Positions 7,194 through 63,780 of a DNA stretch of 64,000 nucleotides are shown here, in pieces. A program made the position numbers and the translations under genes. The DNA comes from Malachius bipustulatus (lineage: Eukaryota; Arthropoda; Insecta; Coleoptera; Melyridae), in NCBI GenBank assembly GCA_910589415.1, contig OU342635.1, positions 11,594,001 through 11,658,000 of the forward strand, given 5' to 3'. The first letter of the stretch is position 1. Each line of letters opens with the position of its first letter. The notes beneath the pieces are model-generated. The model ran no database searches. It worked only from the letters and a program-made list of their open reading frames with translations, and was not told the DNA's origin.

Positions 7194-10100
7194 CTATAAT
7201 GATACTGTTTGTAAAATTCTTCGCAAATTAGTGAAATCTAACTGGAGGTCTATAATTTTCGGTTCCTCACTTGATGGAAACAATTTTTTGGGAATCTTGA
7301 TAAAGCCAATATTCACCGCCTTACTTTCATTGAGGGCCTGGAAAATAAATTACAACATTAATAAGAGTAACAAAAAGTGCTAATCCCTCAAGAGGAATCA
7401 CAGATATAAGATTATTTTCTCCGGATAATGGTCTCGCAAATGTGCAAAAAATATAATTCTGATTAAACGATCGTTTCAATTTTACTGTGTATTGCTGTGT
7501 CATAAGGTTTGAAAGGAACTGAGTTCTTTACTCCCCTTTAAAAGCCCTCGCAAAAGTACTTGAATTTTAGAACTAAAATAAACTTTTAAATATCAATTTC
7601 AAGTTTTTGTTACAAGGTGATTCAGTAGTGAGTACTTATCATACAACAATAAAAAATAAATAAACAAAAAGAGTTTTTCTTTATGCAATAAAAGGTATCA
7701 TGTGACCCCCCCCCCCCCTCCGGATTCTACACCACTGGGTGCTTCAGTTATACCCAAAATGTGGGTTATTAAATAACAAACCTATACAAAAAAATTGGTC
7801 CACTCTGTAGGAAGATATAATAAAAAAAACTGTTCTGTAAATCAGCACACCCAATATCCTGGAAAAAAATTTCTTTCAATTTTCTCCATATTCATAATAA
7901 TATCTGCAAGCGCCTTCAACTTATGGTACTTTTCACTGGATCACCTTGTACATTCCCCTCTACATTCTCAGCTAGCCCAAATGGAAGATACCTCACACAG
8001 TGATGTGTTAATTTTGACTGGGAGTGTATGATCAATTTGATCTTCACCTGTCAATTCAGTTTACCAGACACAGTACCTTAGTCATTTCTTTAGTGGGGAA
8101 AACATGAAAATCGGCTTCTATATGCCCTCCATATTTCCTCTTGACAATTTCATCGGCAACTCTGCTCTGAAACTCCTCAGCTCGCTGACGAAGAGAAGCG
8201 ATCTTGTCTTCTTCCTCGATGAAATGCCTCTGCCAAGCTGCTGCTCTGTTACTAGATTTTAGCTTATAAATTGGTGGAAACTTGGTCGTCGCCAAAGCTA
8301 ACAGTATCTCCTGCAATCACACAATCATTTACACTCATTCGGTAATAATAATTATGCACACAGCTTACCTGTTTCAAAGCGGCCCCATCTTTGTACAGCT
8401 GATCGAGAATTTCGTCATGTCTGGTTTTGAAGGTGGGCAACGGCTGCAGGCTGTCCAGCTGCTTGAGCAACTTCTCACTCTGCAGCTTGACTCGCTCGTT
8501 GTGTTCTTGATGGAAGAGCTTCTTCAGGTTGGCGATTTCCTGGAGTAGCAGGGGCGAGTCTTTGACCATTGCAGAAAGGCTCGGACCGATAGACGATTGA
8601 AGAGACGTCAAGGCTGAACCTATAAGGGTTAATTAAAATGAAGACAGCGAATACTGGTCACCTGTAATGTTTAGTCTGGACTCACCTGAAGTGCTCTTAG
8701 TGAGTGCGGCTTCAAGTTGGGCCTTCTTAGAGACAGCCCTTAGTTTCTCCTTTAGTTCGCCCTTCTCGTTCTCTAGCGAATCGATATCGGTCTGTAGATG
8801 ATCCAAAGTCTCCTCGAATTCCTTCTCCTTCTTCCTGAAATTGTTCTGCGCCTCCTCCATCTTCCTCTGGTACTTCTCGATGGTGAGTTCATAGTCCTTA
8901 TTCACATTTCCGAACTTTTTCTCGGCGAGCTCCTTCCTTATCGTCATCTCGGAGAGTTGTTCCTGTTTCTCTTTTAGAGCCCTCTTCAGTTCCTTGATGT
9001 CCGATTCCTTGTTCTCGAGCTTGCTGGTGAGGGTTTTGGTCTGTTCCAGTTCTTTCTTGACGGTCCCCGAACGGATTTGGATGGGAGGTGTCGGCTACAA
9101 GTTCAGAAATTATGAAATACCTCAAGAAAAAGTGACAGCGAACAAAGCTTACCATTTCTTCGTGCCTGTTAGCGGTAGTAATCTCGTATTCGTTATCTTG
9201 CAAGAATTGAGCTATTTGCGTAATCTGGGTAAGAACAAAACTGAGAGAGTTCTTTATGCTTTGCACGGGTCCCAGATCATCTTGTTCATATATTTTATCA
9301 CTTGCGTTGACAGCGATATCTTTTATTTTATCCTGGGAGAGACCTTTATCACTATCTAAAATTAACGATGCTCATATGAATGCTTAAACAATGATTAAAA
9401 ATGCACTTACCGCCATCCGAATTAAGAGTGTGTATGGCTTTTTTCACAATATCCTGCAGCGTTTTGATCACTTTACCAGAGTGTTGGTAACATTGATACA
9501 AATTTTCATAGATTTCCTTGTTCAGACCCAAGTTTGCTATGTTGGTATCGGGCGGCAGGCGACGCTTTGCCAGTTTTAATTGTTGCTGCAACTGCTCGGC
9601 GACCGTAATTACATGCTGTGACAACAACCCAATGTCTCCAATGTTGGCAGACTGAAAATAATCGGAATAACAACCGACTGCTCGTTTCTCAACATTTTTC
9701 TTTGTCCTTACCTCAATAAGGGACCTAAGTACGATAGCATCTGTACCGAATACATCGCATGCGTTCACCAGACTCTTAACACTGTCCCTGAGGAGGTGCG
9801 AGTGGTTGAGGCGGGCCTCCTGTCCGAGAAGCACCGGATACAGGGTGTTGAAATAGACGACGCATCGTTCTAATGCATCCAGGGGAACGTTTTCGTCCAG
9901 TTGACCTCGTTTCACCAGTTCCACGAATCCGTCGATGACCTTCTCCTGCGCAGCCATCTCCGGATAGGTAGCGCCGACCCTCAGTAGCCCATCAGGCTGG
10001 CAGGTGTTCAGAGCGTGCACGTACTGGTTCAAGATGGCCTAGATTTGGCAATCACACACAAAAAAAAAGTCACCAGTTGTAAATATTCCTGCACAACAGG

Positions 10101-13100
10101 AAGTTATGATAACAGGCACAATAAAAAAAAATGATCAAATTGCTTCAACAGCAAACAAATGGTCAGCCTAAACAACAAAATTCTGCAGTGGAAGGTAATC
10201 CTGGAAGAGGTCTTGCCAGATGCTATTTTTTTATGTGTCTTTTATCTTTTTCATCAACAATGAAAAGCAAAACAATTCATTTTTGGACTGGGTCTGAAGA
10301 TTATCAAAATACAAAATTTACATTTATTGAACTGAATCAATATGCCATCAATATACTGAATTAAAAGATAAATAAAATGTACCTACCTGTAATGCATATA
10401 TGTAGAAACTGAGCCTGCATCTGAAGGAGTACTGTTCGACGGCATGACCCTTAAGCACAGTGGTCCGATCGATTTTCTCCACTTGCGGGAACTTATCTTT
10501 CATCTGACTCAACAAGATGTCGGACTTCTGGATCAGTCTGGGTATTAGTAATAAAACTAGCACAGCATCGTAATCCCCTAAACAAACAGTAATAAATATT
10601 AAATTCTTTCCTCTATGGATCAAACCCACTGCCAATCTCACCTCCTCTGGTCATGAAGGACTCCGGCATGTACGACGTGAGGTAGCTGATGTGCTGCTGC
10701 AGCTGGACCACGTCTATGCGTCTCAACTCGAGGTCGATGGCCTTGGTGTGGGCCCGCGTTTCGCTGAACATCTTCCCAAAATCGGCAATCTCCGGCAGAG
10801 CCGTGACAGGACGGCTGGTCTCCTGCTCCAGGCGTCGCTGAACCTCCAGGCTCTGCTCCTGCAGCCGCTGCACCAGACCGCGGAACTTAGAGATTGTCTC
10901 CTCGCGGTCAATTATCGTCTCGAGGGCGGCATCTCGTTCGCGAAGAGCCTGGGAAAAGGAACTTGTATCTTAAAGGTGCAGTTATTCAATTTTCATAAAT
11001 CACATCTGCATGTCTCTTCATAAGTTAATGTCTCTCAAAATTCGGCTGCTCTGTATGCGTGATGTCATAATGACATGCCAAGTCGATTCGGGAGCCTAGG
11101 TCTAGGGAATCAATCATTAGTAGGGATTTTCAACGCTTCTGATTGATATGTGACAGCATCTTTAAAAGTTGTCAATTTATGAGTAAAAAAATAACTGTTA
11201 CCTCTCTGGTGGTCGCTTGTGCGAGATCCAGTTCTTCCCTTAGATCTGCTTCAAGCTCGGCGTTGCTCTCGACCAGCTGCTCGTTCATGTCCTGCAGGGC
11301 CTCCAGTTCAGCTACTTCCTCCTGCAGCTGGGTGACTTTCTCCTCAAGAGTGAGCTTCTGTTCGCCCAGCAAGACCACCATCTCTTCAGCACCCAGTGCA
11401 GCATCGACCTGGACAGATCAAATGTCTTATAGTGTTTCACATCGAATCTCAACATCACGTTTCTCCTTCTCTGACTGCAAAATCTTAATCATTAAACAAA
11501 TCTGTTTTGGATTTATTTATGAAAATATTCAAAACTTAAGCCGACCTGTTCTTGGAGGTCGGCGATCTGTTGCTCCATTGATTCGACACGAGCACTGAGC
11601 TTCTCCTTGGTTTTTCCTAGTTCGGTGATCTCGGACTTTTTCTGGTCAATGTCCTTCAGGAGCTTCTGGTACTCGTGCTTGTCGTGGGCCATCAGATCCC
11701 TTAGACGGACTAGTGTTTCTCTCAGCCTGGCATTCTGCTGCTGCAGCTGCTTCATCTCATAGGTCGACATTGTCTGTTCTGTACTGCCCGAAACTGTTCC
11801 TCCCACTTTAAAATAAAATAAACGATTAGCAAATTTATCAATGCACCAACAAATTTTAAATAAGAGGAAATTCGACATACACTTCTCAGCCATTTCCGTT
11901 TTCAGGATCTCCAAATCCAAAGTGACCTCTTCCAGGCGCTCCTTACAAGCGTCGAGTTCGAGCTGCAAAGTCTCGGCCTTCTCCTCGGCCATCTCCTTAT
12001 CCAGGGCCGCCATCTCTGCAGCTTCAGCCAAATCGGCTACATCTTCAGCGTGGCTTTCCTTCGCCTCTATCGCTTCCCGTGCCTCCTGCTTCGCCCGCTG
12101 AAGTTCCCGCTGGAGATATGCTTGGTTCTCCATAATCTTCGACTTGAACTCCAACAGCTGATCCAACTGTTAAAGACAACAAAATTAATTCTAACGTACA
12201 CCGTAGGTGATAAAAATTAGCTTCTATCCCAGAAAGCTTCCGGGATGGTGAACAACAAAAAATACAAATGCAACCGGGCCTCCAGGTTCTTAATAATGCC
12301 CTACCTGAATGCGGGTTTTGTCATAATCTTTCAATCTCTCCTTGTCCTCCTGCCTTTTCATTTTCAATGTCTCCATTTTCTCATTCAAATCCCTAATCTG
12401 CAGGTTCCTGTTTTCAATTTCCTGTTGCAACTGGAGTATGCTCATCTTCTCTTCGACGGAAGTGATCGGAGTAGTGGTCGTTGTAATGGACGTTCCCGGC
12501 GTAAACTGTGGCTTGAGAGTCTCCACAAAACCAGTCTAAAAAAGTAAAGATTCAAATGATAATCATAAGGATATTTCAGGTGCAGACATGTTACCTACCT
12601 CTACAAATGAAGCCCGTTTAGGTATCTGGCTGGGTTGTTCCGACAGATCGGTCTTTTCGGTGACCGGCGACGCGAGATGGCTGCGACTGCCAGTAAGAGA
12701 TTGCCTACTCCCGGCCAGCGATTGTCTGCTTTCGGAGAGGGACTGGCGACTGCTCGCCAACGACATGCGAGAGCTAACATGCAAACAACGGTAAAAATAA
12801 TAACGAAATTGTGAAGTTGTAAAAGGTTCTCTTAACATATTAACATGCAACAATGCATAATCTAAGTCTACAGTCTACACAAGGTCTGGGATTTAAACTA
12901 CAAAATTTACAGACAGTGCATTTTACTGAGGCCAGACATTCCTTGAAGTCATCACAGCTGTTGCTCAAAAAAAGTTTTTCCCCTTCAGAGTGGAATTTCT
13001 ATTAAGTCTTGCTTCAGTAAAATGCTAAAATGACTAGACTAAATTATAATATCGACACATAAGCGAAAGTAATCTAGAAAAGATATGCGAGTACGAACAA

Positions 13101-16100
13101 CAAAAACAACAGTTATAAACAAGGGTACCTTGAGGCTGATAAAGAAGGTGGTCGTTTCTGGGGTGAAGTTTTACGTCGAACACTATCCAAGCAGCGTTTA
13201 TAAGGGTTGGAAGGTTATTACATTAAGAAATACAGTTAATGCAATGTTTTGATTCAGCAAAGAAATCGACAACTGTGGAGTATTATAAAAAAAGGTGCTA
13301 ATAGTAACAGTTTTATTGCCCAACAGTAATAAGTAATAACTAATACCATTTGCAGAGTGCAAGACAATAAAAGTAAGTTCTAATACACTATTTAAATACA
13401 GAATAAACAGATAAATATACAAGCAGAAATCCCGCAAAACAACAAAATAATAACAACAACAAGAAATACCTTGGAAAATTAAAAAATAAATAAATAAATA
13501 AATAAATAAATATACCAAGCAACTTTGTCAACTTTGTACTAAGATAAGTTGACTTAAATCGACATAGTTTCATCAGAGATCCAAGAACATTTAGTAGTAA
13601 ATTGTAAAGACATTTTAGGGACACACCCTGTATTTAAAAATAATTTTTCCAATAATCAGCTCAATAAAAACTTCAATGTGACAGAACTGCAAAATACCAA
13701 AGTCAAAAAAATGTCAGAAAAAGAAAAAACCACACAATTAATTGATCACTTCTACGATCCAAATAAACTGGACACAAGCACGATCAGGTCGATCATTGAT
13801 ACGGCCTCCTATCTTAAAAAAGGAAAACTAAGCATCCCCGATTTCCAGGGTAAAGAAGCCATACTAGCATTAGACCAAGACTGCTTCAGGAGTCACCTAG
13901 GGATAAGCAAGGCGGCTCTTCTCCTGAAGATACCACTGCACATCGTTAAAGACTGCTCATTGATACAGACTGAATATGCGGAAGACAGCGGCAAGTTACT
14001 ATCATTAATGTCGGACGTAATTTTCTGTCGATTCCACAGTCATCTGAAAACAAAAAGGTTCATGCAGAAATCAACGGTGCCGGTCGTGAGCGTCTGTAAC
14101 CGAAACTATACCCTCTTGCAGGTATTGAGCGACTTGCTTACAATGAAAGAACAGTTCGTGGAGTTGGAGAATTTAACGGTGGGCTGGCACGGACCGCCCG
14201 GCAACTTGATCAACACTTATCTCGCCATTGCACCTCGTCTTGGTATGAACGTGAAGTATCACTGCTGCAACGAAAGTAATCAATTGATGTCTCCCTTGAC
14301 TCTTGACAGGGCGAAGGAGAAGTGTAAGGAGAAGAGCAAGATAACCGAATGCAAAACATTCAAAGATACGTTGGAAAAAGTCGATATAATCGTCTCCCAG
14401 AAACATACGATATCCAATTCGACAATCCAAGAGAAAGATATTACACACAGATGTCTCCTACTGCATCAATTACCGAGGAGTCACAACGAAATCAATGAGA
14501 AAGTTTTTGACCGGGAGCATAATATGACATTCAGTTCGTTTCTCAATTATAAATGGATTTGTGCATCGATTATGATAAAATGTCTAAAATAATATTATAT
14601 ACTATACAGGGTGTTTCACTCTTTACAACTTGTTCATTGGAAGTTTATGCTCTTCTAGCTAAAATTTCGTTCTGGAAATTACTTTCTTTAATTTGTCTTC
14701 CTAATTTTTTGGTTATTGGTATGTAATTACTTTAGAAATTAGTGCCTCAAGTCAGGTAAGGTTACATTCAAGTTTTTCGGCAATAATAAAACAGCCAGCC
14801 CTGTAGGATTTCGATTTTCACCTGATTGAAAACAAATATAAAAAATCGGAGTCAATGGTTTGAGCCCAATTATAAATAATACACAAAAAATATAAACAAT
14901 TTTCTATAACACAGCACTACCTAAGTTTGTATTTTAAATAAGGACAGCCTGTACATTAATACATTTTTATTGCTCTGTAGGTATACAACTTCTATGTTTA
15001 TTTTTGTGAAAACAAACCTAATGGCTAATAGCCACAATCATAATAGAAACATTTGAACTTTCTTTGGTTTTTTTTATTTGGCGACGCGTGGAGAAATCTC
15101 AGATTTTTTCAAATTTTTTATCACCCTGTATAAACATTTTATCTATACATATCATAGGATAGTACATGAAAAGTTAAAATAGGGACATGTAAGCCGTTTT
15201 TCTCTATCTTGAGCCATTTTCGTTGTACAGGGCCTTGAACTTCAAAAATTACGATTTTCACTTGTTTATAACTCAAAAACTTCTGAACTTAAACAGCAAC
15301 TGTAAAAGCCAATCTTATTTTTTCTTCTCAATCTAAAAATACAATAACAGGAGCATTCCATTAAAAAAAAAACATAACTTTGATATGCCACTGTCATATG
15401 GGACACTCTGTATACTCCAAAGTGATCCTGGTGTTGAATTTACAAATTATTTTTTGAAAAAATCCGTCATTTCGCCCACAGAGACCACTTGGAATGAGCT
15501 GGGACATTCTGTATACCTAACAGAATTATGTGTGAAAAAACTAAGGCTGAAAATTATTTTGAAGAAGAAACCTGAAGTTGCTGAACTGAATTTACTGAAC
15601 AAAAATATTTCAACTTACGTCGTAGGCTTTGGTTTCGTACCGCTTGGCCTTCAGTTGCATGAAAACATGTATAAAATAAATAAAACTTCTCTAAAAACTT
15701 AACAATAACATTTTTCTAAGCCTTTTATATTATTTATAGTATGAGGATTGTTCGATTAAATGAAACATCCACACTATTAACCCTTTCAGTCCTGTTCACC
15801 CAGTATATAAGTACAGGTGTAACTGTAAATTAATAACTGCTAAAAATCCAGGGAGTGGTCCCTTTTTGAAAAATAAGATGGATCTTGCATATAAAGAAAT
15901 TCATTTGAACACTCCCTGTCAAGATAAACCATTTTAAAAAAGCAAATCAGATTCTCATTAAGGATTAAATTGAAGGGATTATTGCTAGAACGTGATAAGC
16001 CACAACACATTAACCGACATTTTTGGTGGCTTTTCACATTCTAACTGCAGAAGTTGGCGCTGTAGTATCAATGCTAGAACTGGATTTTAAAGCTAGTGGC

Positions 16101-28757: not shown

Positions 28758-31700
28758 CTACTTGGCCTCGGTCCGAGCCCTTAGCTTCATCCTCGCCTCC
28801 AAGAATTCCTTGTTTATCACCTTGTCATCTTCATTCTTAAACAGAGAGGATAAGAATCGCGCGTTTGGTTAACCTAAAACAGTTACCTTTTCAGGATTGT
28901 TTTGTAGTCTTTTGGCTCTGTCGGCGATCACCTTCTCCAGCTCGGGAGTATTGCCGGAAGTATTGTTCTCCAGTTCCTTCTTCGCTATGTGGTCCTTCTG
29001 CCTGGCCAGTACCCGCTGCAGCTCTGTCTTCTGATTCAGGACATTCTTACCACTACAGAACAAACAAACAAACAATAATACATATTTTGTTAGTATCTAC
29101 TACCTTCCTGCATAGCAACAAGTGATATATTTATGGACATGGTCTTAAAGAGTAATTATTCTTGGTGCAATGGATCAAACAATACCCACAACCCCAAAAA
29201 TTGGCAACAGACTTTTTCAGCAACCTAATTCAGTTCCAGTGTGTGTGTATATTCCATTCCGATGTTTTTAAATTCAGAGTTGGCTATGGAAAATTTGAAT
29301 TATGTTGGTACCTCTTCGAATACTGAGCTTTGAACTACTACCTTTGATTTTAATTTGTCCTCCTTGTGGTACTCCAGAGGTAACTGGGAACTCTTGACAT
29401 AAAATGTTTTTTATTTTCACTGCTTGTTTCCTGTTTGATAAAAAATCACTTGACCATTTCAGTAGTGAATAAGAATAGAAATACAAACCCTATCGAATGC
29501 CTTCGCGAAATCGATATAAATAGTATCAACCTGCTGGCGATTTTCTAGAGCTTTCAGAATGTTGTCCTGATATTCAAGAAGATTTGAACCTCTGAGGAAA
29601 CCATGTTAGGGGAAACTAATTAGAGCGTAAAAAGGAAGCAAGTGCATAATTTCAACTGAATACATATCTCAGAAAACAAGGGAGTTATGAATAAAAAGTT
29701 CTTTTAAAATTTAACTTTAACACCCTGTGTCTTAAAAGAGGGACGCCTATGTGAAAAATGGCATAAGGAAAGCCCCATTATTTTAGACCAAGCAAAAAAT
29801 AGTTATTTTTTTTCAAAAATAATAAAAGAATACCGATGGTGCCATCACATGCGAAATAGTCCCCTTTATCTTTTTTTTTTAACAACTTTTAATGCCAAAA
29901 ATAGCTTTTTTTTATTATAAAAGAAAAACTGATGAGGCAATTTAAATGGTCCCAATGGACGAATTGTAGAGAAATTAAAATACGAAAAAAATGAGAGCTG
30001 AAACAAACCGATCGGTTCATTATTAAGAGAGATAAAAATGTTTTGTTTTTTTAATTCGTAAAGTCGTCATTTTTGAGTTGTAGTGCAGGCTCTTTGCGAG
30101 ATAGTCCATATTGATAGGTACCATGTGATGTGCAAAGCAGACAGACACTGTCAGATATTAGTTTTCGTGTAAGTAATTGCAATCAGAAGTTCTTCATAGC
30201 ATATTTTGCAGCGAGGTTGGATGCTCTGGCTGCTATGCTCTCTTTCACTCCTTGCAGTATTATTGTATTATAGATCAATTAAATAATGTAATGTCCTGTT
30301 ATAAGTTTGAAATGATGTAATTCGAGATGTGTCTGGTGCCAAATCAATAAATAAATAAATAAATAAAAAGCATGTGGATAGGCAGTGAGCTATGTGGTCT
30401 GTACAAATAGTAATAATTGGTTTGTCCTTCAGTGGAAAAGGTCAAATACAAATTGATCATAGGTGCCAACAGAAAAGCAGTAAATTTCAATGAACTCTGA
30501 AACTTACAGTCTTTTTCTTTTGGTTTTCCTCTTTTCTCAATTGCTTTTCCTATTTATGTACAGCTTTTCCTATTTATGTACAGTGTCAGTATCATAAACA
30601 TTGGAAAAGTATTTGGTATAAAAGGAATCTTATTTTTCAAAAGAGGAATTTCAATTGAAAAATCACACTGACCTTTGATAAATGGGAAAAGCAATTGACA
30701 AAAGACGAAAACCAAAAGAAAAAGACTGGCAATAACCAAGACCTAAAACAACTTACATCCGTTGGTTGAACAGCAGCTCCTTGTGCAAGCTCTGGCGCTC
30801 GGTGTTCTCCTTGACGGGGTTGGGGGGCTTCCGGGGCATAATTAGACCGTGCTCGGTGACGGCGGGTGGCGAGGGCGACTTATGCGGGCGCTCGGGGATC
30901 ATTGCCGCCCTAGACTCGCCCTCTTCTGAAACAATAAATAATCAGAATATTCATTTCGGATTTTGACTTTACAATGAGCAACAATAATAATTATTAGAGT
31001 AATGACAATATTCAAAAATCGGTTCCGAATTTGACATTTTTTTTTTTTTAAATTTCCAAAGTGGCGACCCCGCCTTGATTTTTCAAGAACTAAGTAACCG
31101 TGAATACTTACGATGTCAATTGACACCATACCCCCCCCCCCCCCCTGCAGCACAAACTGAACGGTCTGAAGAACTCCTTCATTTTTTGGACGCAAGAATT
31201 TGCCATCCTATTTCAATCTACTATAGATTCGGTATATTAATATGATGAATGTCCTGGCCTGGAGCACGCGAACCCGAAGCCAGATGATGCTTTAAAACGC
31301 ATTTTTCAGACAAACACATCAGGTACCACCACTGCGGGCATTCTTTGCTACATTAAATCTGCAGCTGCAGCATTCGTTAAGAGTTTACTATCAGATCCAG
31401 TAACGCCGGCTAGGTGTTGAAACAATCCAGAAATGTAAGGATGCAAAAGAATGAGGATTGGGCTTACAGAACAGAAGAACTAGCAATTGCAAAATTTGCA
31501 ATAAAAACTGCAAATTTCGTATTTTTACATTTATTCAAAATAAAATAAGGTACAGGCACGTTGCCATGAGACACCCTGTACATATTTGAGCCCGAGTAAG
31601 GATTTTTATGACGCAAATCCACTAAGTTGCCGCAGGTAACTTGATGTTTCAATAATTGAAGAATATCTATTAACAACTGGGACATCCAGTCTCTGCAGTA

Positions 31701-34700
31701 CAAGCACTACAAGCGACGGGTATAGATAACCTTGAAGGTGCAGTAAGAAATACTTACTGTAGTTTGTCATTACTTTCTGCAAGGATATTCCCTGGTGCAA
31801 TTAAATTTATTACGGGAAGTCAGAGCCGCTGACTTTCCACAAGGGGCAATAGCCCTTGAGGCTACTTGAAAACTTCTGACACTTGGGCTTTACCACAGCC
31901 ATAAGATATTTATTTATTTATTTTACTGGAGAAATGTAAGTTCAAAGAATCTCCCAAAGCAGATACGTTGCTAACATTATGATTTTTGTAATTTAACCAG
32001 CCTTCCATCTTTTATATTTTGCCTCATGTGCAAAATAATGTTTTTAAATCCCTTTGTCGGTAATTTAGTTGTTTGTAATAATAATAATTATTATTTGTTC
32101 GACATGTGCTTCCGCACATAAAACTCTGTACATATAACCCAAGCACCAGTCGTCAGGTTGAAGTCGCGTCATTAAATTTTTATGGACTTCAGCTTGCTTT
32201 TTTGGTTTCGCTGAGAAGAGTTCTATTTAAATTTATGTTTCCAGTTAATTGGGGGTAATTGCCTCTCTGTACTCATGTCACAATACATATGGAGATCTGT
32301 GGAATAATAATTGAAGTTAACATGCAGGTCCGCACTGCTGGCAGTCTCATAAGTAGAATGTTATAAAAATCGTTATAACCCGTTCGTTTGTCTATATCGG
32401 TGCGTATTGATGAATATTTTACTGTTAACCTGTAATTAGGTTAATGTAAAAAAAAGGTAAAGGTACAGAGAGGGGAGGGGAGGACACTTTTCGAGGATTG
32501 GCTCCACCGCCCCAATTGATCGCATATTATATTTTTCATAAACATTCGCAAATAAATTTAAAAAACAGTGCGGGCCCACGCAGCTAGGATCAAACCTGGC
32601 GAAATTATTCCTCATTTAGAACCAAAATCTAAAGAATCGGTGCAAATATATTTATATCTGATGGGTTGCATCGGAAGTGATTCATTTCCAGAAACACTTT
32701 GTTTATTCGCGTATTTATTGACTTGAATATCGTGATTCAACAATGGCAGTATGTCCGCCAATTTTCGAGAATCTTGTTAAAGTCGTAATTCGCGAAAAGA
32801 AGATAATAACTCGGTAATTGCGTTCGCGGACTTGACTGTTGTTGAGATAATTGCATAGAAACAGAAACAATTTATTTTCTCGATATGTAGATAAAAGGCA
32901 AAAGATAAATAATTGAGGTAAGATACAGGTGAGGCTTCCCTCGTTCGTACGACACCGACACGACATACCACCATGGCAGCCTAGACTATCTTCCAATTCT
33001 CCGCTTATCGGTTCCTGATCGCGCGCTCTGGATGGTTCCGCCATCCCTTTATGTCATCTGTACTTTCTTCCATTGGCTACTTAACGCGCGTCTGTTTTCC
33101 GCTCTTTCCAGTTATACCATTTTAGGTATGTACGATGCCCGCTAGGTGATATCGCGATCGTAAACCATAACTGACCTAAAAGGTCCGTGAATTTTGACAC
33201 GCTGTCGTTTAGAGAAGGTTGTTAAAATAAAAATTATATCTAGGATGCAAATTAGGCTATACCCCATAATCATGCGACATATTACATTATTTATTTTATT
33301 ACAAACGTGCAGTAGATACTATTTAATAAGATGAGGTTATTTTACCTGAACGGTAGTAAAATGATTGCTAATTAGTAAAATGTTTGAAGCAAGGATATAA
33401 TAAGAAGAAATGATTAGACAGATAAGCTAAGTTATGATGCCTTAGTTTCCCTCGCAATCGGACTTCGGAAGATAGAGGCTGAGTTCAAAGCACATTGAGA
33501 GGCCGCCGAATCACGATTTGTATCAGATGCCACGTGAGATCTGAGTCCTCGTAGTCCGTAGTTACTGCCGGATACCTTATTCTCGGCCCTCTAGCTATGC
33601 CACTGAGGCCGAATTTAAAGCGCAAAGACCTCCGTCAACCAACCGATTGAAGCTATAACAAGAATACCAACTAATAAGAAGCCAAATTGCGGTGACAATA
33701 TTAGAACTGTCATTTAAAAACCAAGACCAAAAGCCACTGACAATCGGTATGTTCACCTGACGTCAACTGTTGCGTTGTTGGGGTAGCGCTTGCGTTCGAC
33801 CTTCCAAACTAAAAAACTGCTCTAAACACAAACGGCAATTTGCTGAACAATAAAAGCCATAAACTTTGTTTCGCGTACTAAACTTACCGGTACGGATGTC
33901 GCCAAATCTCGACGTTCGAACCCGCATCCGTGCGCTCCCTTCGTGCCAAATGCTCGGTGCAGACAGCAGCTCGCACTGGATGGATTTATCCGCGGTCGTT
34001 ACCGGAGCTTGCATGAGGCCGACATGTTGACGGGGCGCTGGTTCGCACGAGTAGTCGCCTTCATAGCGTCCTCGCTTGACTATCTGCTCCTCGTCCAAGC
34101 ATGCACAATCGTGTGACACGACTCCAGTCCTCTTGCACCGCGAGCAAAATAGTCTCCAACGCACGGTACAGTCGCTGTGGAAGTGACCCATCTCGCCACA
34201 TCGCCAGCACAAAATGGAGTCTGGAGTGATGTCGGGTCCGGTCGGCCGATATCCCAAACTGCTGGAAAATTGCTCTGAGAGCGGCGCCGGTTCATCAGGA
34301 TGTACCGCTTCGGTAGTGGATGGTTGTGTCGTGGGTTGGGGGGTAGTGGTTAACGGTTCCTCCGCACACGACCACGGAGGTTCAGTCTTAATTCCTGCGG
34401 CGAAGATGGATGGTCGGTAGATCGGATACTCGTCCATCATCTGCCAAAAGTGACTCACTTCGCCACATGGAGTGATGTCGCATCCGCTCTGCCGATATCC
34501 CAAACTAGAGGACATTGGCTCCGAAGGTGGCATCGGTTCGTCAGGATATATTGCTTCGGTCGCGACCGGCGGAGTCTCATTGTCTATCGGCTCATTGTCT
34601 ACCCGTGGGTCGGCGGGGATGCGGATGCGCATTACGCGTCCTGACTCGGTTTGCACTGTCAGGCGGAACCGCCGGTCAGTTCTTGCTCCTGCCGGTCGCA

Positions 34701-37700
34701 AAAGTCGCAATTGATTATTTAAGTTAGGCGGTTTGGGGACCGTCGCCAACATTCTTTCCAGGCTCGGGCTAATGGTCGGCAACAGCTTAATCGGCTGGTA
34801 TCCCAAAATATTGGACATCGGCTTCGGGGGCGAGGTCGGTTTGCCAGGATGTACCGCTTCGGTAGTGGATGGTTGTGTCGTGGGTCGGAGGGCAGTGGTT
34901 AACAGTTCCTCCGTACACGACCAAGGAGGTTCAGTCTTAACTTCTGCGGCGAGGATGGGTGGTCGGTCGATCGGATACTCGGCCATCATCTGCCGAAAGT
35001 GAGTTACCTCGCCACATGGAGTGATGTCGGATCCGGTCGGCCGATATCCCAAACTAGGCGACATTGGCTTCGAAGGTGGCATCGGTTCGTCAGGATACAT
35101 TGCTTCGGTCGCGACTGGCGGAGGCGGAGTCTCATTGTCTATCGGTAGTCCTGCCCGTGGGTCGGCGGGGATGCGGATGCGCATTACGCGTCCTGACTCG
35201 GTTTGCACTGTCAGGCGAAACCGCCGGTCAGTTCTTGCTCCGGCCGGTCGCAAAAGTCGCAATTGATCATTTAAGTTAGGCGGTTTGGGGACCGTCGCCG
35301 ACATTCTTTCCAGGCTCGGGCTGATGATCGGCCATAGCTTAATCAGCTGGTGCTGGTATCTCAAAATATTGGACATCGGCTTCGGGGGTGAGGTCGGTTT
35401 GCCAGGATGTACTGCTTCAATATTGGAGTGTTGAGTAGTAGATCGGGGGGCAGTGGTTAACGGTTCCTCCGCACACGACCACGGAGGTTCAGTCTTAATT
35501 TCTGCGGCGAGGATGGGTGGTCGGTCGATCGGATACTCGGCCATGATCTGCCGAAAGTGACTCACCTCGCCACATGGAGTGATGTCGGATCCGGTCGCTC
35601 GAAATCCCAAACTAGGGGACATTGGCTTCGACGGCGACGTCGATTCGCCAGGATGTATCGGCGGTTCTACCCGTGGGTCGGGAGGTATGCGGATACGCAT
35701 CATGCGCCCCGACTCGGTCTGCACTCTCATGCGAACCCACCGGTCGGTTCTTGCGCCTGTCGGTCGCAAAAGTCGCAATTGATCATTTAAGGTAGGCGGT
35801 TTGGGGACCGTCGCCAACATTCTTTCCAGGCTCAGGCTGATGGTCGGCCACAGCTTAATCGGCTGGTATCCCAAAATATTGGACACCGGCTTCGGGGGCG
35901 AGGTCGGTTTGCCAGGATGTACTGCTTCGATATTCGAGTGTTGCGTTGTAGATCGGGGGGCACTGGTTAACGGTTCCTCCGCACACGACCACGGAGGTTC
36001 AGTCGTAATTTCTGCGGCGATGGTGGGTGATCGGTCGATCGGATCTTCGGCCATCATCTGTCGCAAGTGACTCACCTCGCCACATAGAGTAATGTCGGAT
36101 CCGGTTGGTCGAAATCCCAAACTAGGGGACATTGGCTTCGAGGGCGGCGTCGATTCGCCGGGATGTATCGGCGGTTCTACCACTTCTACCCGTGGGTCGG
36201 GAGGTATGCGGATGCGTATCATGCGCCCCGACTCGGTCCGCACTCTCGTGCGAACGCACCGGTCGGTTCTTGCGCCAGTCGGTCGCAAAAGTCGCAATTG
36301 ATCCTTTAAGGTAGGCGGTTTAGGCACCGTCGCCAACATTCTTTCCAGGCTCGGGCTGATAGTCAACAGCTCGATGGTCGGGCGGTTTGTGGATGGTGGT
36401 GTCGTAGGTCGAGGGACAGCCGTTTTAGGTTGTTCCGCACACGAACACGGAGGTTTAGTCACAGTCACAATTTCTGCGGCGATGGTGGGTGGTCGATCGG
36501 TTGGATCCTCGGCCATCATCTGCCGAAAGTGACTCACCTCGTCACATAGAGTGATGTCGGATCCGGTCGGTCGAAATCCCAAACTAGTGGACATTGGCTT
36601 CGAAGGCGGCGTCGATTCGCCAGGATGTATCGGCGGTTCTACCACTTCTACCCGTGGGTCGGGAGGTATGCGGATGCGCATCATGCGCCCCGACTCGGTC
36701 CACACTCTCAGGCAAACCCGCCGGTCGGTTCTTGCGCCAGTCGGTCGCAAAAGTCGCAATTGATCATATAAGGTAGGCGGTTTGGGGACCGTCGCCAGCA
36801 TTCTTTCTAGGCTCGGGCTGATAGTTATTCGGTTTGTGGATGGTGGTGTTGTAGGTCGAGGGACAGCCGTTTTCGGTTCTCCTGCACACGACCACGGAGG
36901 TTTCACCTTAATTTCTGCAGCGAAGGAGAGTGGTAGTTCGGCCGGATCTAGGGCCATCATCTCGGCCGATACGGAGGTGACGGACTCAGCAGGGTCTCTA
37001 GCACGACCACACGTCGACTGCCGCACGGCTACAAAACGGTAAATACATTAAACAAACTAGTCGTAGTTATGAACGGTCGCAGAAGAGGACGGGATGATTT
37101 AGGGTGTTCACAGACCAACGCGGGACTGCGGGAGAGAAGGGATCCGAGCGCGGGATAATATTGTGTATAGGAAATGCAAAAATAGAAATGCGTGAATTTG
37201 TGTTCATGATTCAGACTCCTGATTGAGATCTTACAGGTGTTCACGGACCAACGCGAGACTACGAGAGCGATCTGCGAGCAGAACGCAATTGTGCAACGAA
37301 AAATTCACGAACAAAAACTCACGCGACGTTTCTCCAGAGGGGACCCGGGTTTTCAGCGCACTGTTTTCCCGAATACCGTTGCACGTCTTTATCGCATTAA
37401 GGCACTTTCGGACTATAAAAACATACAAAAAAAAGACAAGATATGGATGAAATTTATCTGAAGCTGGGAGAAAGAAACAAGTACAAGAAAGTGTCCCGTG
37501 CATGTGTTTTCATTTAGAGATTATTATAGTCGCATTTAAAAAATATACTTTTTAGAGCGGTTTTTATAACATCCTGAAGTTGAAGCAGTAACTGAACAAG
37601 GAGCGCTAGAGAATGTATTGAATAAAAAAGGGTGTTATGAAAGGAGCCCGAGTATTTCGATAAGGCAATAGGGTCTTGCACCGTCCTAGCTAGTGCATGA

Positions 37701-39966
37701 CTGAAGAATTTCTTTCTTGCACCGCCCAGTATTTATGTTCCCTTCAAAAAGATTGTCCTATTGATCGCCCAGCTCTAATTGCTGTCCAAACACCAACTGT
37801 CTCAGGAAAAAGTATCCCGATCTTTGAAACCATACTTCATATGTGCAAAAAGCCTTTCTGAAAACTTTTTCAAGTTTCGGTGAAAACATCGACAAAAATG
37901 TAACCTCTCAGGAATGTCTCGGGCGGGGCAGCAACGAGTGACGGCAACCACCGTCAAGGATTCTCACTCGATAAGGATGCAAGTGAGAATCTTTGATGAA
38001 TGAATTTTCTGAGCTAGGTGACGAACCGTTGTGTGAGGATCATTTTGGTTAATTTCCATATTTTGTTCAGTACGTCTTTTTGGCCTGTCTCTCGACAATT
38101 TGGCAATATATCGCTTAACAGTCTCTCTAAAATTCTGGAGAGCCACCGCAACACCGGGACATTCCTCTTGGAACTCAATTGGCAGTTTCCTGTAGAGTAC
38201 ACCCAAGTTCCATTAATTTTATTTCAATTGCGAAAATATCTTTCTCAACTATAAAAGTTTTTTGCTCTAACGTAAACGCCATTTTATGATTTTTATAAAT
38301 CGATGTAATTAATTTAAATATAAATAAATAATATACACTAATATACATATATCAATCATAATTACCATCTTGAAAATATTTTCATTGAATTGAATGTCTG
38401 GAAATTTTTTATTTTGAGGCTCTAGGCCCATTAGTTTCCGAGATATGGACGGTGGCCGACCTTAGCAGGACACCCGGATACAAAAAAATAATTGATTTGT
38501 TTTGGCTGTAGACAATATTATGAAATATTGAAAATTATATTGGGATTGCAGCCAATTACAAAGGTTTACTATTTTTTCTTTTTTATGAACGCTTACGAGC
38601 TTTTCTTTAGCTCGAAAAGAAAAGAAATGAAAAAAAAGAAGAGCTAAAGAAAAGCTCGAAAGCGTGTAATTGGCTGCAATCCCAACATAATTTTCAATAT
38701 TTGGTATACGAGATATTTGAGATATTTGAGATATTTGATACAAAATTGGGAAATTTCGATTTTAAAAACGCTCCTGTAGCTTTATCTTTCAAGATTGGTG
38801 AACGAAACTTTGAATCCTTGTAAAACTTTGGAATGACGTTAGATTTTCGAACAGGTGCCCTTTCAGAATTCCAGAAATTCGGTTTTTGTCATATCATTTC
38901 AGGTCGCAGTTTTCAATTCAGGGGGGTTGAAATTTTTGTGGTAAGATATCAATAAGCAGCGGTTTTTTTAGCCCCTGATTAACGGCTACCAAACCTTTCT
39001 TTTCTTTTCTACTCTAACAGGTAAATCGTGTTTGAAAAACTAGAGCAGCGGATCCCAATCGACGTGTTCTTAAAAGGATTCACTTCGCGTGACTCGTTCT
39101 ACTATCCATAACACCATTAAAAGGTTAAGCATATAAAAGAGCGGGTGTGGGTGGTGTAAGCTTATTAATTCGATTATACCTATGAGAAAAGCCTTTCTAA
39201 TCAATGCATTCCTTAACCTCGCACTAAACGGTCAAACCTTATAGTTTATATTTATGCATCGGAATTAAAAATAGCTCATCAAAATCAATTTTTTCTTTCT
39301 ATTGAAGAGATCTAAGAGCTCTTTAAATGAAAATGCTACTTGAGTTGATGTTGAATAAATTGTTTCTCTAAGTTGTGGTATCTCTCTTTTTAATAATTTT
39401 AAGTACCTATAACCTTTTTAAAAAAATAAAAGACTTTAACATTATTTAATCTTCGAGAACTGGAAAAAAAGCTAAGTGGATTCATGACTCACCTTCACAT
39501 CAAATGACTAATAAAGTCTTCGGTGAGTGAAGACAACGAAATTTTTTTAATTTGTATTCTACATTAATTTTGAATCACTCGCAATAACAATAACATTCAC
39601 AAAATCAAACTTACCAATAATATCCTTCTCTCCTAATTTTGATTTTAATTCTTCTATGGTGGGATGTCGAAATTGGTGCGTGTCCTCTGTAGTCAAATCC
39701 TGAAAAAGAAATAATTATAAAAATGTTTTCTAGAAAGGAACATCTATAAAATTAATAGGAAATTCGTAGCCATTATTATAGGGATTTCAGCAGACTTTGA
39801 TGCATATACCTAGTCGATCGCAACCGGTGTGGATTTGAATGTTCTAAGAAGTTCGAAAAAGGGGCGAGAAGTCGAACAAAGGAACCGGAAAATTTCAAAT
39901 CTGAATGCATACTTTTCAGCGGGTTACTCACCTGACGAACGTTTGTGTATCGAGCCCTCCTCACTC
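28758..39966 (-). CDS. FAM107-family protein, long 5' isoform
   Basis: The family is small, coiled-coil, actin/cytoskeleton-associated (vertebrate FAM107A/B). Common exons are 30925-30757, 29052-28887 and 28835-28758 (stop TAG). The hallmark block is GLIMPRKPPNPVKENTERQ plus SLHKELLFNQR, then a helical stretch (NQKTELQRVLARQKDHIAKK) and TPELEKVIADRAKRLQNNPEK. Upstream on the same strand, exon 39699-39615 encodes DLTTEDTHQFRHPTIEEL and KSKLGEKDII. It has a good acceptor (CTTTTTCAG) and a phase-1 donor matching the phase-1 acceptor of 30925. A 35-nt exon at 39966-39932 (VRRARYTNVRQ) would join it in phase 0 but is weakly supported. The first exon was not found and may lie beyond 41.9 kb. I do not give a symbol, since one insect gene corresponds to two vertebrate ones. 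Confidence 0.75.
29350..29625 (-). pseudogene. Non-LTR reverse transcriptase fragment
   Basis: On the minus strand, in the FAM107 intron, HGFLRGSNLLEYQDNI, then VDTIYIDFAKAFDRV, then (after a frame change) SDFLSNRKQAVKIKN and VTSGVPQGG can be read. These are consecutive RT motifs of Jockey/CR1-type elements (palm D in YIDFAKAFD, then GVPQG). The copy is short, frameshifted and truncated at both ends. Confidence 0.75.
30508..30728. repeat. Inverted repeat beside FAM107 exon
   Basis: The left arm AGTCTTTTTCTTTTGGTTTT and following bases pair with the right arm ending AAAACCAAAAGAAAAAGACT, about 50 bp per arm with a 110-bp interior. A 20-bp unit TTTTCCTATTTATGTACAG is tandemly duplicated at about 30545-30583 within the left arm. 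It lies 28 bp downstream (in transcript sense) of the exon at 30757. Confidence 0.7.
30926..32968. other. FAM107 intron, no further exon seen
   Basis: The interval holds a poly-C tract near 31132-31145, an ACACCCTGTACAT repeat end near 31571, and AT-rich sequence. No additional phase-compatible exon was recognised. Confidence 0.5.
32969..33044 (-). CDS. FAM107 alternative first coding exon (MAEPSRARD...)
   Basis: ATG at 33044 opens MAEPSRARDQEPISGELED and ends SLGCHG with a strong donor (GTATGT) in phase 1. That is the phase needed to join the common exon 30925-30757. The joined product (76 + 169 + 166 + 78 nt = 489 nt) is exactly 162 aa plus stop, about the normal size of FAM107 proteins. 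This is the best-supported short isoform. Its promoter would lie at about 33.05-33.2 kb, where I see no clear TATA box. Confidence 0.75.
33763..36960 (-). CDS. Same block read as a stand-alone ORF (alternative model)
   Basis: If transcribed independently, the block can be read from the double Met at 36960 (MMALDPAELPLSF) to TGA at 33763-33765 as 1065 aa with no intron. The extra C-terminus beyond the 33888 donor is KFSTRNKVYGFYCSANCRL plus a short Cys/Gln-rich end. AATAAA on the minus strand occurs at about 33290-33300. Two near-identical 33-bp repeats lie upstream (37104-37136 and 37237-37269). This model competes with the cassette-exon model above. RNA would decide. Confidence 0.45.
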   Translation of the reverse strand: MMALDPAELPLSFAAEIKVKPPWSCAGEPKTAVPRPTTPPSTNRITISPSLERMLATVPKPPTLYDQLRLLRPTGARTDRRVCLRVWTESGRMMRIRIPPDPRVEVVEPPIHPGESTPPSKPMSTSLGFRPTGSDITLCDEVSHFRQMMAEDPTDRPPTIAAEIVTVTKPPCSCAEQPKTAVPRPTTPPSTNRPTIELLTISPSLERMLATVPKPPTLKDQLRLLRPTGARTDRCVRTRVRTESGRMIRIRIPPDPRVEVVEPPIHPGESTPPSKPMSPSLGFRPTGSDITLCGEVSHLRQMMAEDPIDRSPTIAAEITTEPPWSCAEEPLTSAPRSTTQHSNIEAVHPGKPTSPPKPVSNILGYQPIKLWPTISLSLERMLATVPKPPTLNDQLRLLRPTGARTDRWVRMRVQTESGRMMRIRIPPDPRVEPPIHPGESTSPSKPMSPSLGFRATGSDITPCGEVSHFRQIMAEYPIDRPPILAAEIKTEPPWSCAEEPLTTAPRSTTQHSNIEAVHPGKPTSPPKPMSNILRYQHQLIKLWPIISPSLERMSATVPKPPNLNDQLRLLRPAGARTDRRFRLTVQTESGRVMRIRIPADPRAGLPIDNETPPPPVATEAMYPDEPMPPSKPMSPSLGYRPTGSDITPCGEVTHFRQMMAEYPIDRPPILAAEVKTEPPWSCTEELLTTALRPTTQPSTTEAVHPGKPTSPPKPMSNILGYQPIKLLPTISPSLERMLATVPKPPNLNNQLRLLRPAGARTDRRFRLTVQTESGRVMRIRIPADPRVDNEPIDNETPPVATEAIYPDEPMPPSEPMSSSLGYRQSGCDITPCGEVSHFWQMMDEYPIYRPSIFAAGIKTEPPWSCAEEPLTTTPQPTTQPSTTEAVHPDEPAPLSEQFSSSLGYRPTGPDITPDSILCWRCGEMGHFHSDCTVRWRLFCSRCKRTGVVSHDCACLDEEQIVKRGRYEGDYSCEPAPRQHVGLMQAPVTTADKSIQCELLSAPSIWHEGSARMRVRTSRFGDIRTGKFSTRNKVYGFYCSANCRLCLEQFFSLEGRTQALPQQRNS
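33888..37028 (-). CDS. Giant repeat exon with zinc knuckles, phase 1-1, in FAM107 intron
   Basis: A 3141-bp open block (1047 codons exactly) lies on the same strand as FAM107. It is bounded by an acceptor (TTTTGTAG, 37036-37029) and a strong donor (GTAAGT, 33887-33882), phase 1 on both sides. It could therefore splice from exon 39615 and into exon 30925 without a frameshift. It encodes five full and one partial tandem units (starts near 36921, 36480, 36018, 35508, 34950 and 34401; 147-186 residues each). The core is SPSLERMLATVPKPP, then DQLRLLRPTGARTDRR and TESGRMMRIRIPPDPR. The last unit runs into CWRCGEMGHFHSDC (CX2CX4HX4C, 34209-34168) and a second Cys-rich motif CSRCKRTGVVSHDC, the paired arrangement seen in insect Gag-type proteins. 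If unspliced, the frame continues to TGA at 33763. The first in-frame ATG is 36960. Function is unknown. Confidence 0.7.
34099..34209 (-). other. Two zinc knuckles, Gag-like
   Basis: Knuckle 1 is CWRCGEMGHFHSDC with canonical CX2CX4HX4C spacing. Seven residues later comes CSRCKRTGVVSHDCAC, a CX2C...HXC variant. The pair, with aromatic and Arg residues between (TVRWRLF), matches the nucleic-acid-binding region common in insect retroelement Gag proteins and their host-derived descendants. Confidence 0.85.
34402..36921 (-). repeat. Coding tandem repeat, five units of 441-558 bp
   Basis: Unit boundaries set at the codons for AAEI give lengths of 441, 462, 510, 558 and 549 bp, followed by a truncated sixth. 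The same DNA phrases, such as GTGATGTCGGATCCGGTCGG and TCGCAAAAGTCGCAATTGAT, recur once per unit. Length differences come from extra Pro-rich segments (TEAVHPGKPTSPPKPMSN, NETPPPPVATEAMYPDEP) in the 3' units. All unit junctions stay in frame, so the expansion was coding-compatible. Confidence 0.92.
37104..37269. repeat. Direct repeat pair upstream of giant exon
   Basis: GTGTTCACAGACCAACGCGG at 37104 and GTGTTCACGGACCAACGCGA at 37237 continue as similar sequence for about 33 bp, 133 bp apart. They are GC-rich against an AT-rich background and sit just 5' (in transcript sense) of the repeat exon. They may be LTR-type relics or regulatory duplications. Confidence 0.6.
37960..38282 (-). pseudogene. 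HTH (DUF4817-like) transposon protein remnant
   Basis: From ATG at 38282 the minus strand reads MAFTLEQKTFIVEKDIF, then a frame change leads into KLPIEFQEECPGVAVALQ, FRETVKRYIAKLSRDRPKRR and HTTVRHLAQKI. This resembles the N-terminal helix-turn-helix region (DUF4817 type) found in many insect transposon-derived proteins. It is frameshifted and has no downstream catalytic domain. Confidence 0.55.
38527..38703. repeat. Short foldback, 38.5-38.7 kb
   Basis: AATTATATTGGGATTGCAGC near the left end pairs with GCTGCAATCCCAACATAATT near the right end. An inner hairpin AGCTTTTCTTTAGCTCG / GAGCTAAAGAAAAGCTCG also forms. The arm phrase GGGATTGCAGCCAATTA recalls GGGATTGCAGTCAATTAA in the 20577 foldback, suggesting one family. 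Confidence 0.65.
38704..38960. repeat. Dispersed repeat shared with 26.3 and 49.7 kb
   Basis: The phrases AAACGCTCCTGTAGCTTTAT, TCTTTCAAGATTGGTGAACG and a block ending GTTTTCAATTCAGGGGG relate to 26280-26560 (same phrases in inverse orientation). Phrases such as CATTTTGAAACG and CAGTTCCATAGGTTGAAAAC tie 49.68-49.8 kb to 26.28-26.38 kb. These are non-coding old MITE copies. Confidence 0.55.
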
Positions 39967-50300: not shown

Positions 50301-50900
50301 GCAGTTTAGCAGACAAAAAAATCAAACAAACCCACCAAAGCTCACGCTCTACAATAAAGAGGTAGAACATGCCACAGCGTTTAGGTTTTTGGGAATGATC
50401 CTTGCAACTTGCCGAGGTTGGCAGACGACGACGTACACGACGAAGTTAAATTAGTAGAAGAAAGCCTCGAACGAGTAAAGAATAATAAAAACTTCCAAGA
50501 GGAAGTGTTTTGCTTTGCCAATAGAAAATAATTTTGGAGCGAAAACGAAATCACTAGCACACGAACAGACAACGTCCTGGAGTGCAAACAAAATAAAAGC
50601 TTGTGGATAGGCTGTGAACACTGCCGGTAAAACAGTATTCAAAATTCAAAGTACGAGAAATTAAGTGAAGCATTAGAATTTCGATTCGGCAATCCCCATC
50701 ATGAACCAGGTTTTCCAAAGTCAAGGTTCCATTGCAGAAATTTAAGGAACAGCCAGCCACGCAAGCCTTCGTTAATGGAATACGAGACACAGATGCAAAA
50801 TACAAAAGGATTCCAGGAACCAGTGTTACTGCGTGTTGTAGTGCCACTTCTCATTTGATGAAAGACTGTAAGGTTCCAGAGATTTCGGGACGCAGCTTCC
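47311..50900. other. Gene-free stretch, scattered repeat ends
   Basis: TACAGGGTGGTCCAAC occurs at about 47311 and its inverse GGGCCACCCTGTA at about 50258, nearly 3 kb apart, probably from different insertions. A member of the 26.3-kb repeat family sits at 49.55-49.9 kb. ORFs here are short and without recognisable domains. The GC-richer segment at 49.28-49.48 kb is unexplained. Confidence 0.45.
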
Positions 50901-52076
50901 ATTTCGGTCGGATGCTAGGCCCATCCTTTCGGGGGTCCCACAGGGATCTGTATTGGGGCCGCTACTATTCTCCCTGTATATTGCTGACCTTCCTGACACT
51001 GTCTCTCACTGCTCTATTCAAGTATTTGCCGATGACATTCAGTTACACCTTTCATTTCCATCATGGGATGTGCAGACTGCTGAGGCAAATATAAATTCTG
51101 ACCTGGCCAATATATACGAGTGGACCAAAGAAAATCACCTCTTACTGAATCCTGACAAATGCCAAAGCATTTTATTCGGCCCAAAAACCAAGAGGCAGTT
51201 AATTGGGAATCTAGATATCCGGATTGCTGGCTCCCAGATGCCAATCCATGATTGTGTTAGAAATTTGGGTGTCTTCATTGACCGTGAACTTTCCTTTAGC
51301 CGTAGCACAAGCCACCTCTGTCAAAAAGCTTATTTCAGTCTGAAGCAACTACTGCTTTATAAGATGTTACTGTTACTAGTTCCTCAGACTAACCTGCTGC
51401 TTTGCGAATCACTTGTCCTATCAATACTTAATTACGCTGATGTAATTTACGGCCCCTGTATATCATCTATTGACAAACAGAGGCTGCAAAAAAATACAAA
51501 ATTTCTGCATCCGGTTTGTTACTCCAATTCCGCAGTAACTCACACCACACACCTTATCTCCGCAGTCTCCAATGTTTAAAAATACAAGAAAGAAGGTTCA
51601 TTAACTATGTAGTCCTATTAAATAGAGTTATACAGACAGAAAGACCTAGATACCTTTACGACAGATTGTCCAAGAGGAGTGATGTCCATTGTCTGAACTT
51701 GCGTCATCACACAACCTCATTCTTCAGACGGAGTTTCTCCTACATCTCAACATTTCTATATAATAACTTATTGTCCGAGATGCAAAATTCATCCAGTAAT
51801 GCCTTAAAAAAAATCTAAAAAATAGAATTATCTCCGAAAACCTCGACCTAAATCTAGGTCTATTTTAGTGTAGGCTGAGTTATTAAAGTACTGATCACTC
51901 TTCTCACTGTAATGTGACCTGAATTAATACTCACCTTTGTTATGTAAATGTAGGGATACCTTGTATCAGCTTTGCTGTGGTAATCCCTTTTGGGCAATGT
52001 ATATATGGTGTAATTATGTGTATAATACTGTATAATATTGCTCAATAAATATTATTATTTTTATTATTATTATTTA
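50900..52076 (+). mobile_element. 5'-truncated non-LTR retrotransposon (Jockey/CR1-like RT)
   Basis: An open stretch encodes RT motifs [25 protein letters not shown], then the catalytic [12 protein letters not shown], followed by the thumb [11 protein letters not shown]...[12 protein letters not shown] and [14 protein letters not shown] frameshift near 51560 leads into the C-terminal end (ERRFINYVVLLNRV, PRYLYDRLSKR, SFSYISTFLYNNLL). The 3' end is an A/T-rich (ATT)n tail at about 52040-52076. Everything 5' of the RT palm is missing, typical of truncated target-primed insertion. Confidence 0.85.
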
Positions 52077-63045: not shown

Positions 63046-63780
63046 TAGGATGTCAAGAGTAGGAATCAGGAGTGTATGGCGAGCCACTGAGGATCGATCC
63101 TTGGGTGGCTGTGAGGGGCTCCTGACACTACCAAAAGACAGAACTGTTAAGAAATTCAGTTTCGAGAGAAACTTCATCACGAAACTGTCTACGAAAGAGG
63201 AATCGAACAACACCTCCAACTGTACTCTCAAAGAAAGTACGATCAAATGGTACACAGACGGCTCTAAAACTATCAAGAGAATATATGGGCCATGTACTCC
63301 AAACCATTAAGAAAATCCCCAACCATACTACAAGCGGAATTACACGCAATAGAAGTGTGCGTTCAAATAAACCTCGACAAAAACTACAAAAACAAAGAAA
63401 TAGAAATATTGACGGATAGTCAAGCAGCCATAAAGACGCTGAGCTCTTCGACCATCAGCTCCAACATGGGAAAATCTTGGGAGGGCCTAGGAAAATTTAA
63501 CGAATTAGGCAAGGGAAATAAAATTCACCTCAAGTGGATACCGGGCCATTCCGGAATCGAGGGAAACGAACGTGCCCACTCATTGGCAAGAAAAGGAACA
63601 TTGACACCCTTCATAGGACCAGAACCATTCTGTGGCTTCGAAGATACTTTCTTCAAGGCAGAACTCAGAAAGAAAGAAGAAAAACTGAGAGAAACCCATT
63701 GGAGCAAACCTTTCTTAAAAAATATGGGCTTCAAGCAAACATTATTATTGTCAATATGATCAGTTATCACCAAATAAAAT

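Follow-up and report, generated by a model that had tools for sequence, protein, structure and literature searches.

The minus-strand open block at positions 33888..37028 of the window (the whole 64,000-nucleotide stretch analysed here, from the beetle Malachius bipustulatus: GenBank assembly GCA_910589415.1, contig OU342635.1, positions 11,594,001 to 11,658,000) lies in an intron of a FAM107 gene and derives from a long terminal repeat (LTR) retrotransposon of a kind that carries a protein kinase gene. By comparison with its relatives elsewhere in the genome, the block represents the accessory region of such an element: the tail of the kinase, a short module and part of a zinc-knuckle protein, five times over, followed by one zinc-knuckle domain. 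We hold with moderate confidence that it is retrotransposon-derived coding sequence in the sense orientation of FAM107, kept by selection, and most likely a nested gene with an ATG of its own. The original prediction had read the block as a new FAM107 exon. Its account of the repeats, the knuckle, the splice sites, the phases and the host gene holds, together with some constraint at the protein level; its reading as an exon fares less well, the block being retroelement-derived and having a well-placed ATG of its own.

As originally predicted, the block measures 3141 nucleotides, exactly 1047 codons, and is open. One frame is free of stops; the two others contain 47 and 41. The open reading frame (ORF) that spans it from stop to stop is, at 1094 amino acids, the longest listed for the window, and 500 base shuffles of 33400-37400 gave a longest open run of 320 codons. 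The GC content is 0.57, against 0.33–0.38 in the flanking intron. Segmentation by composition places the 3' boundary exactly at 33888 and leaves the 5' acceptor unmarked, with the best start at 37155. The likely start, an ATG at 36960, opens the first repeat unit in a good context.

Five repeat units (Table 1), spaced 462, 510, 558 and 549 nucleotides apart, every spacing a multiple of three, are followed by a sixth, shortened unit that lacks the central module and ends in a zf-CCHC knuckle (E value 0.00031, with the whole ORF scanned). This agrees with the tandem-repeat, zinc-knuckle polypeptide first described, while Tandem Repeats Finder gave no report within the block. All insertions and deletions between units are in frame. 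At the end of each of units 1–5 the first half of the knuckle stands in mutilated form (CGEVSHF and variants), the full set of ligands being present in the last copy only. Structure prediction from the five units places a single ordered region of about 55 residues, made up of two short helices plus a hairpin, amid predicted disorder.

The origin of the block was traced by searching the 544 Mb of the species' own genome in 52 contigs. With the whole block as query, 42 of 788 candidates were scored, and among these there were 47 matches: the block itself, 41 that touch the C-terminal zinc-knuckle part, and five to the repeats only. The best match other than the block reached 99.7 bits, compared with 2489.9 for the block itself, and no close second copy was found among the candidates scored. 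With a single unit as query there were 72 matches, of which 63 lie elsewhere than in the block. We compared 24 genomic loci (20 and then four more) and scanned 20 of their ORFs with Pfam, which recovered gag, aspartic protease, reverse transcriptase, RNase H, integrase and protein kinase domains, with Pkinase at E 1.7e-42 in L022 and 1e-42 in L026. The order in these relatives is gag, protease, reverse transcriptase–RNase H–integrase, a CaMK-like kinase, a 56-residue module, a zinc-knuckle protein and an LTR. Judged by this domain order and the Pfam matches, rather than by a reverse transcriptase tree, they are Ty3/gypsy-like LTR retrotransposons.

The kinase is present in ten of the 24 loci (L009, L011, L012, L022, L024, L025, L026, L030, L031 and L032); in each of them it is followed by the module and the zinc-knuckle domain. 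An LTR of the L019 type (87–99% identical) follows the zinc-knuckle ORF in L009, L011, L012, L025 and L026; LTRs of other types stand there in L022, L030 and L031, L024 has a short partial match only, and no LTR was seen at that place within the 3.2 kb fetched for L032. Upstream of L026, locus L033 has a gag that matches the gag of L010 at 98.9%, together with the beginning of a protease and a 5' LTR. Together L033 and L026 make up one copy, about 200 bases between the two stretches not having been read, in which the LTR pair encloses gag, protease and reverse transcriptase–RNase H–integrase in Ty3/gypsy order. The two LTRs of this copy are identical over 996 nucleotides, and the kinase thus sits inside a very young LTR element. 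The solved structures closest to the element kinase are CaMKII chains (E 1.5e-33). The glycine loop, lysine, HRD and DFG motifs, which serve in kinase activity, are intact in four of the seven copies inspected (L009, L022, L025 and L026); of the others, L030 and L031 have HRN and L032 has no DFG.

Other relatives are non-autonomous: in L010, L014–L020, L023 and L028, near-identical LTRs, seen as direct repeats of 692–1932 nucleotides at 99.4–100% identity, flank gag, protease and zinc knuckle, and pol is reduced to little or nothing. L027 and L028, 8.4 kb apart, contain the same 1051-amino-acid ORF, in which gag, knuckle, protease and a second zinc-knuckle domain are fused in one frame.

Each part of the block finds its counterpart in these elements. 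The units start with MMAEDPIDR, which has its counterpart at the kinase domain's end (MLADDPDER in L022); the middle corresponds to the module behind the kinase, with 68% identity over 56 residues to L029, L030 and L031; and the end corresponds to the linker and knuckle of the zinc-knuckle ORF, the knuckle domain being 47% identical over 89 residues to that of L026. For the knuckle of the block, a gag query scores more weakly than a zinc-knuckle-ORF query (E 5e-13 versus 1e-24), and the gag query matches the block by gag's own knuckle alone; otherwise there is only module and knuckle similarity at the locus. Four LTR queries found no match in the window and no pol was seen beside the block, the pol queries giving a single weak match at 60 kb (E 0.007). 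By these comparisons the block is not itself a Ty3/gypsy element with LTRs, gag and pol.

Traces of the ancestral element may extend beyond the 5' end of the block. In frame before the first ATG, ARDPAESV...MMALDPAEL resembles ATEPAMSVWV-RQMMADDPDERP of L030, and 37112-37156 resembles kinase; these similarities fall in the E range 0.02–0.18 and, like the out-of-frame kinase relic of Table 1, are weak on their own. Candidates for a target-site duplication around the block were direct repeats of 9–10 nucleotides only. The 68 nucleotides before the ATG were rejected as a homologue of the unit end (z 0.3–1.5). The region 37029-37270, partly of the same origin, does not serve as a decayed control, one of its three frames being open to the last codon, and this lowers our confidence slightly. 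Further upstream, at 37701-38475, are two repeats common to the flanks of L021 (up to 76%) and L016 (83%), probably belonging to other mobile elements just upstream of the block.

The in-frame indels, the absence of stops and the low ratios of nonsynonymous to synonymous substitution (dN/dS) in the module suggest that the block has been kept as coding sequence since it left the element. At least 170 substitutions among the units created no stop, for which the neutral chance is 0.0016. The dN/dS comparison of the units, proposed with the original prediction, gave a divided answer: over the ten pairs of units 1–5 the ratio is 0.44–0.92 for whole units and 0.26–0.68 for the module, while outside the module it runs from 0.48 to 1.15, and in the five pairs with unit 6 from 0.66 to 1.17. 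The alignments suggest purifying selection that is supported in the module and not clearly elsewhere. Differences between neighbouring units fall at codon positions 1, 2 and 3 in the numbers 56, 52 and 103 (p 1e-5). Several observations weigh against our interpretation, the ratios outside the module and with unit 6 among them. Counted once per column, the differences by codon position become 38, 33 and 56 (p 0.03), and with CpG sites removed the excess shrinks to 46, 35 and 60 (p 0.035). On a tree, the five modules of the block form a cluster whose support is modest (68/84), and it is possible that the multiplication took place inside an active element before insertion.

To these points must be added the lack of relatives in other species by protein search, and hence of an orthologue that shows constraint. 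In a database of about 5.8 billion proteins, which contains beetle proteins, a first search scored 7992 candidates of about 579–1843 amino acids and found none with E <= 0.1, and a second scored 4217 candidates of about 233–742 amino acids and found none with E <= 1. No relative of the block was found in phage records (by tblastn), in prokaryotic genome contigs, or in viral contigs, for which the C-terminal half and the unit alignment served as queries.

We propose that the FAM107 intron retains the 3' accessory region of an old gypsy-like LTR element copy, one in which pol was followed by a CaMK-like kinase and a zinc-knuckle protein. The segment running from the kinase domain's end across the module to the first half of the knuckle would then have multiplied in frame, presumably at this locus, to five units, with one whole zinc-knuckle domain after them; the LTRs, gag, pol and nearly all of the kinase would have been lost, and the frame maintained by selection for a presumed function. 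A putative nested transcript would be translated most likely from the ATG at 36960, giving a predicted protein of about 1065–1080 amino acids, largely disordered, with five small ordered modules and one knuckle that may bind nucleic acids. Such a transcript would either run to the stop at 33763 or use private 3' exons. With a strict acceptor threshold private exons are absent, the best structure being at chance level: it was matched by 141 of 300 simulated sequences and by 177 of 318 other stretches of the window. With the threshold loosened afterwards, the two candidates in Table 1, which serve as a lead only, score better than 398 of 400 simulated sequences; they have no convincing similarity to the element sequence. 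Poly(A)-like signals at 33327, 33300 and 33295 are weak, as three of the 11 such hexamers in this intron stretch.

The alternative to which the original prediction pointed, a fusion with FAM107, must be weighed against the structure of the host gene. The four FAM107 exons join into 165 codons plus a stop with a Pfam DUF1151 match (E 1.9e-29). In a fusion, the block would be spliced to the exon that begins at 30925. It would either follow exon 39615-39699 as a cassette or, under a promoter of its own, serve as an alternative first coding exon, and the resulting protein of about 1161–1212 amino acids would end in DUF1151. The acceptor (TTTTGTAG before CC) and the donor (CCG followed by GTAAGT) are as first described, and the block is in phase 1 at both ends, fitting the neighbouring FAM107 exons; inserted between them, it leaves the frame open to the same stop (1212 amino acids plus stop). 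A phase match on both sides is expected by chance in about one of nine cases. The block donor scores 10.4 bits against 8.1–8.8 for the three FAM107 donors, by a consensus matrix, and at this donor the composition falls and the codon score drops from +0.26 to -0.81 nats per codon. However, the fall is also explained by the ORF of the ancestral element having ended near the same place. The fusion has further against it the ATG that opens unit 1, the position of the 3.1-kb exon between long introns, and the candidate private exons, as a lead. A FAM107 protein search returned 62 proteins from 101 candidates; among those with names, beetle proteins matched best (Leptinotarsa 62%, Tribolium 64% and Asbolus 66% identity). 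In the 16 aligned, the junction region has at most a short extra stretch (about 25 residues, in weevil protein P0024), in a search that could return only proteins of about 91–289 amino acids and no long isoforms. Translation from the ATG at 36960, with a read-through stop or with private 3' exons, is as consistent with the sequence as the fusion, which we regard as unlikely.

Somewhat less unlikely, though still improbable, is that the block is an inert fragment of an old element, its frame open by chance or through recent departure from the element, and makes no protein. Linker dN/dS near 1, the modest p values without CpG sites, and the lack of relatives in other species by protein search all speak for it, but such a fragment would have to account for 1094 open codons with indels in frame only, the low neutral chance of no stop, the module ratios, and a large divergence from every element copy compared. 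A further reading makes the block part of a non-autonomous element variant that has an expanded accessory array and is still, or was until recently, mobile. The young non-autonomous relatives in this genome described above would fit it, but the failure of all four LTR queries in the window and the lack of a second array copy among the matches scored, which for the whole-block search came from 42 of 788 candidates, make this very improbable.

As a gene kept by selection, the block would join the host genes derived from the Gag of LTR retroelements, such as Arc, PNMA, the ZCCHC genes and Drosophila Gagr. By its derivation, as the sequence comparisons have it, it resembles such domesticated genes: like them, it is a retroelement-derived frame with a CCHC knuckle, and no LTR or pol match was seen beside it. 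It differs in coming from the accessory region behind pol (kinase tail, module and second zinc-knuckle protein) and in being tandemly expanded and intronic. Compared with FAM107/DUF1151 proteins, the block shares the host gene, in which DUF1151 is present, and the strand, but resembles no part of the known members, which are small; the mammalian ones have 131 and 144 amino acids (PMC3990222).

The kinase-bearing LTR retrotransposons may be a larger finding than the block. They share with Ty3/gypsy elements (Metaviridae) the LTRs and the order of gag, protease and reverse transcriptase–RNase H–integrase; between pol and the 3' LTR they have in addition a CaMK-like kinase and a zinc-knuckle ORF. 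The block keeps fragments of these additions only. In the full-text literature searched, which excludes most subscription journals, no title reports a kinase gene in an LTR retrotransposon or a comparable FAM107 isoform. The planarian element Burro is likewise gypsy-like with accessory ORFs for extra host-like domains, but these are MATH_TRAF_C and midasin-like, and the word kinase is absent from that text (PMC6431247).

Table 1. Features of the FAM107 locus and of the kinase-bearing element copy
Feature	Position	Strand	Basis or remark
Reported block	33888..37028	-	one open frame; acceptor before 37028, GTAAGT donor after 33888
Stop-to-stop ORF, 1094 aa	33763..37047	-	likely start ATG ATG at 36960/36957
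Repeat unit 1, 147 aa (kinase tail, linker, module, zinc-knuckle linker)	36520..36960	-	unit alignment
Repeat unit 2, 154 aa	36058..36519	-	unit alignment
Repeat unit 3, 170 aa	35548..36057	-	unit alignment
Repeat unit 4, 186 aa	34990..35547	-	unit alignment
Repeat unit 5, 183 aa; predicted ordered module at residues 72-127	34441..34989	-	unit alignment, structure prediction
Unit 6 without module, and zinc-knuckle domain (zf-CCHC, ORF residues 946-961, ~34165-34212)	33888..34440	-	Pfam, element comparison
Kinase relic AVDVWSC, out of frame with block	37001..37021	-	weak by itself (E 0.02)
Two 35-nt direct repeats (37103-37137 and 37236-37270)	37103..37270	-	repeat search
Candidate private exon (lead only)	33757..33808	-	loosened acceptor threshold; absent under strict one
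Candidate private last exon with stop (lead only)	33485..33602	-	loosened acceptor threshold
FAM107 exon, phase 1 out	39615..39699	-	exon joining
FAM107 exon, phase 1 in	30757..30925	-	exon joining
FAM107 exon	28887..29052	-	exon joining
FAM107 last coding exon	28758..28835	-	exon joining
Kinase-bearing copy, two parts	L026:1-6850 and L033:1777-5201		CaMK-like kinase and zinc-knuckle ORF between pol and 3' LTR

Elsewhere in the window, an uninterrupted plus-strand frame of 344 amino acids (13558-14592) matches aspartate/ornithine carbamoyltransferase domains (E 4.9e-13 and 5.3e-10), with motifs that look divergent. Reverse transcriptase and RNase H fragments on the plus strand at 50872-51579 and 63268-63759 (E 1.7e-12 and 2.8e-11) are probably remains of non-LTR elements. 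On the minus strand, a Dynactin (dynein-associated protein) exon lies at 9352-10038 (E 7.7e-29), with coiled-coil frames at 8633-9094 and 11513-12169 that may be further parts of this gene.

If the block is indeed a domesticated gene, hosts can take over the accessory genes of retrotransposons, not only gag and env, and the intron of a conserved gene can be the place where such a gene expands through in-frame tandem duplication. A bolder version, which we think unlikely, starts from a young beetle LTR lineage that has a CaMK-like kinase, plausible as a catalyst, and also a second protein that binds nucleic acids. The host would have taken over the region of kinase tail, module and zinc knuckle, amplified it in tandem and put it to use as an alternative FAM107 exon at the N-terminus; an actin-associated stress protein would then be tied to a nucleic-acid-binding repeat array. 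Kinase-carrying retroviruses act on host signalling, and a kinase gene in a young LTR retrotransposon raises the question of whether retroelements do so as well.

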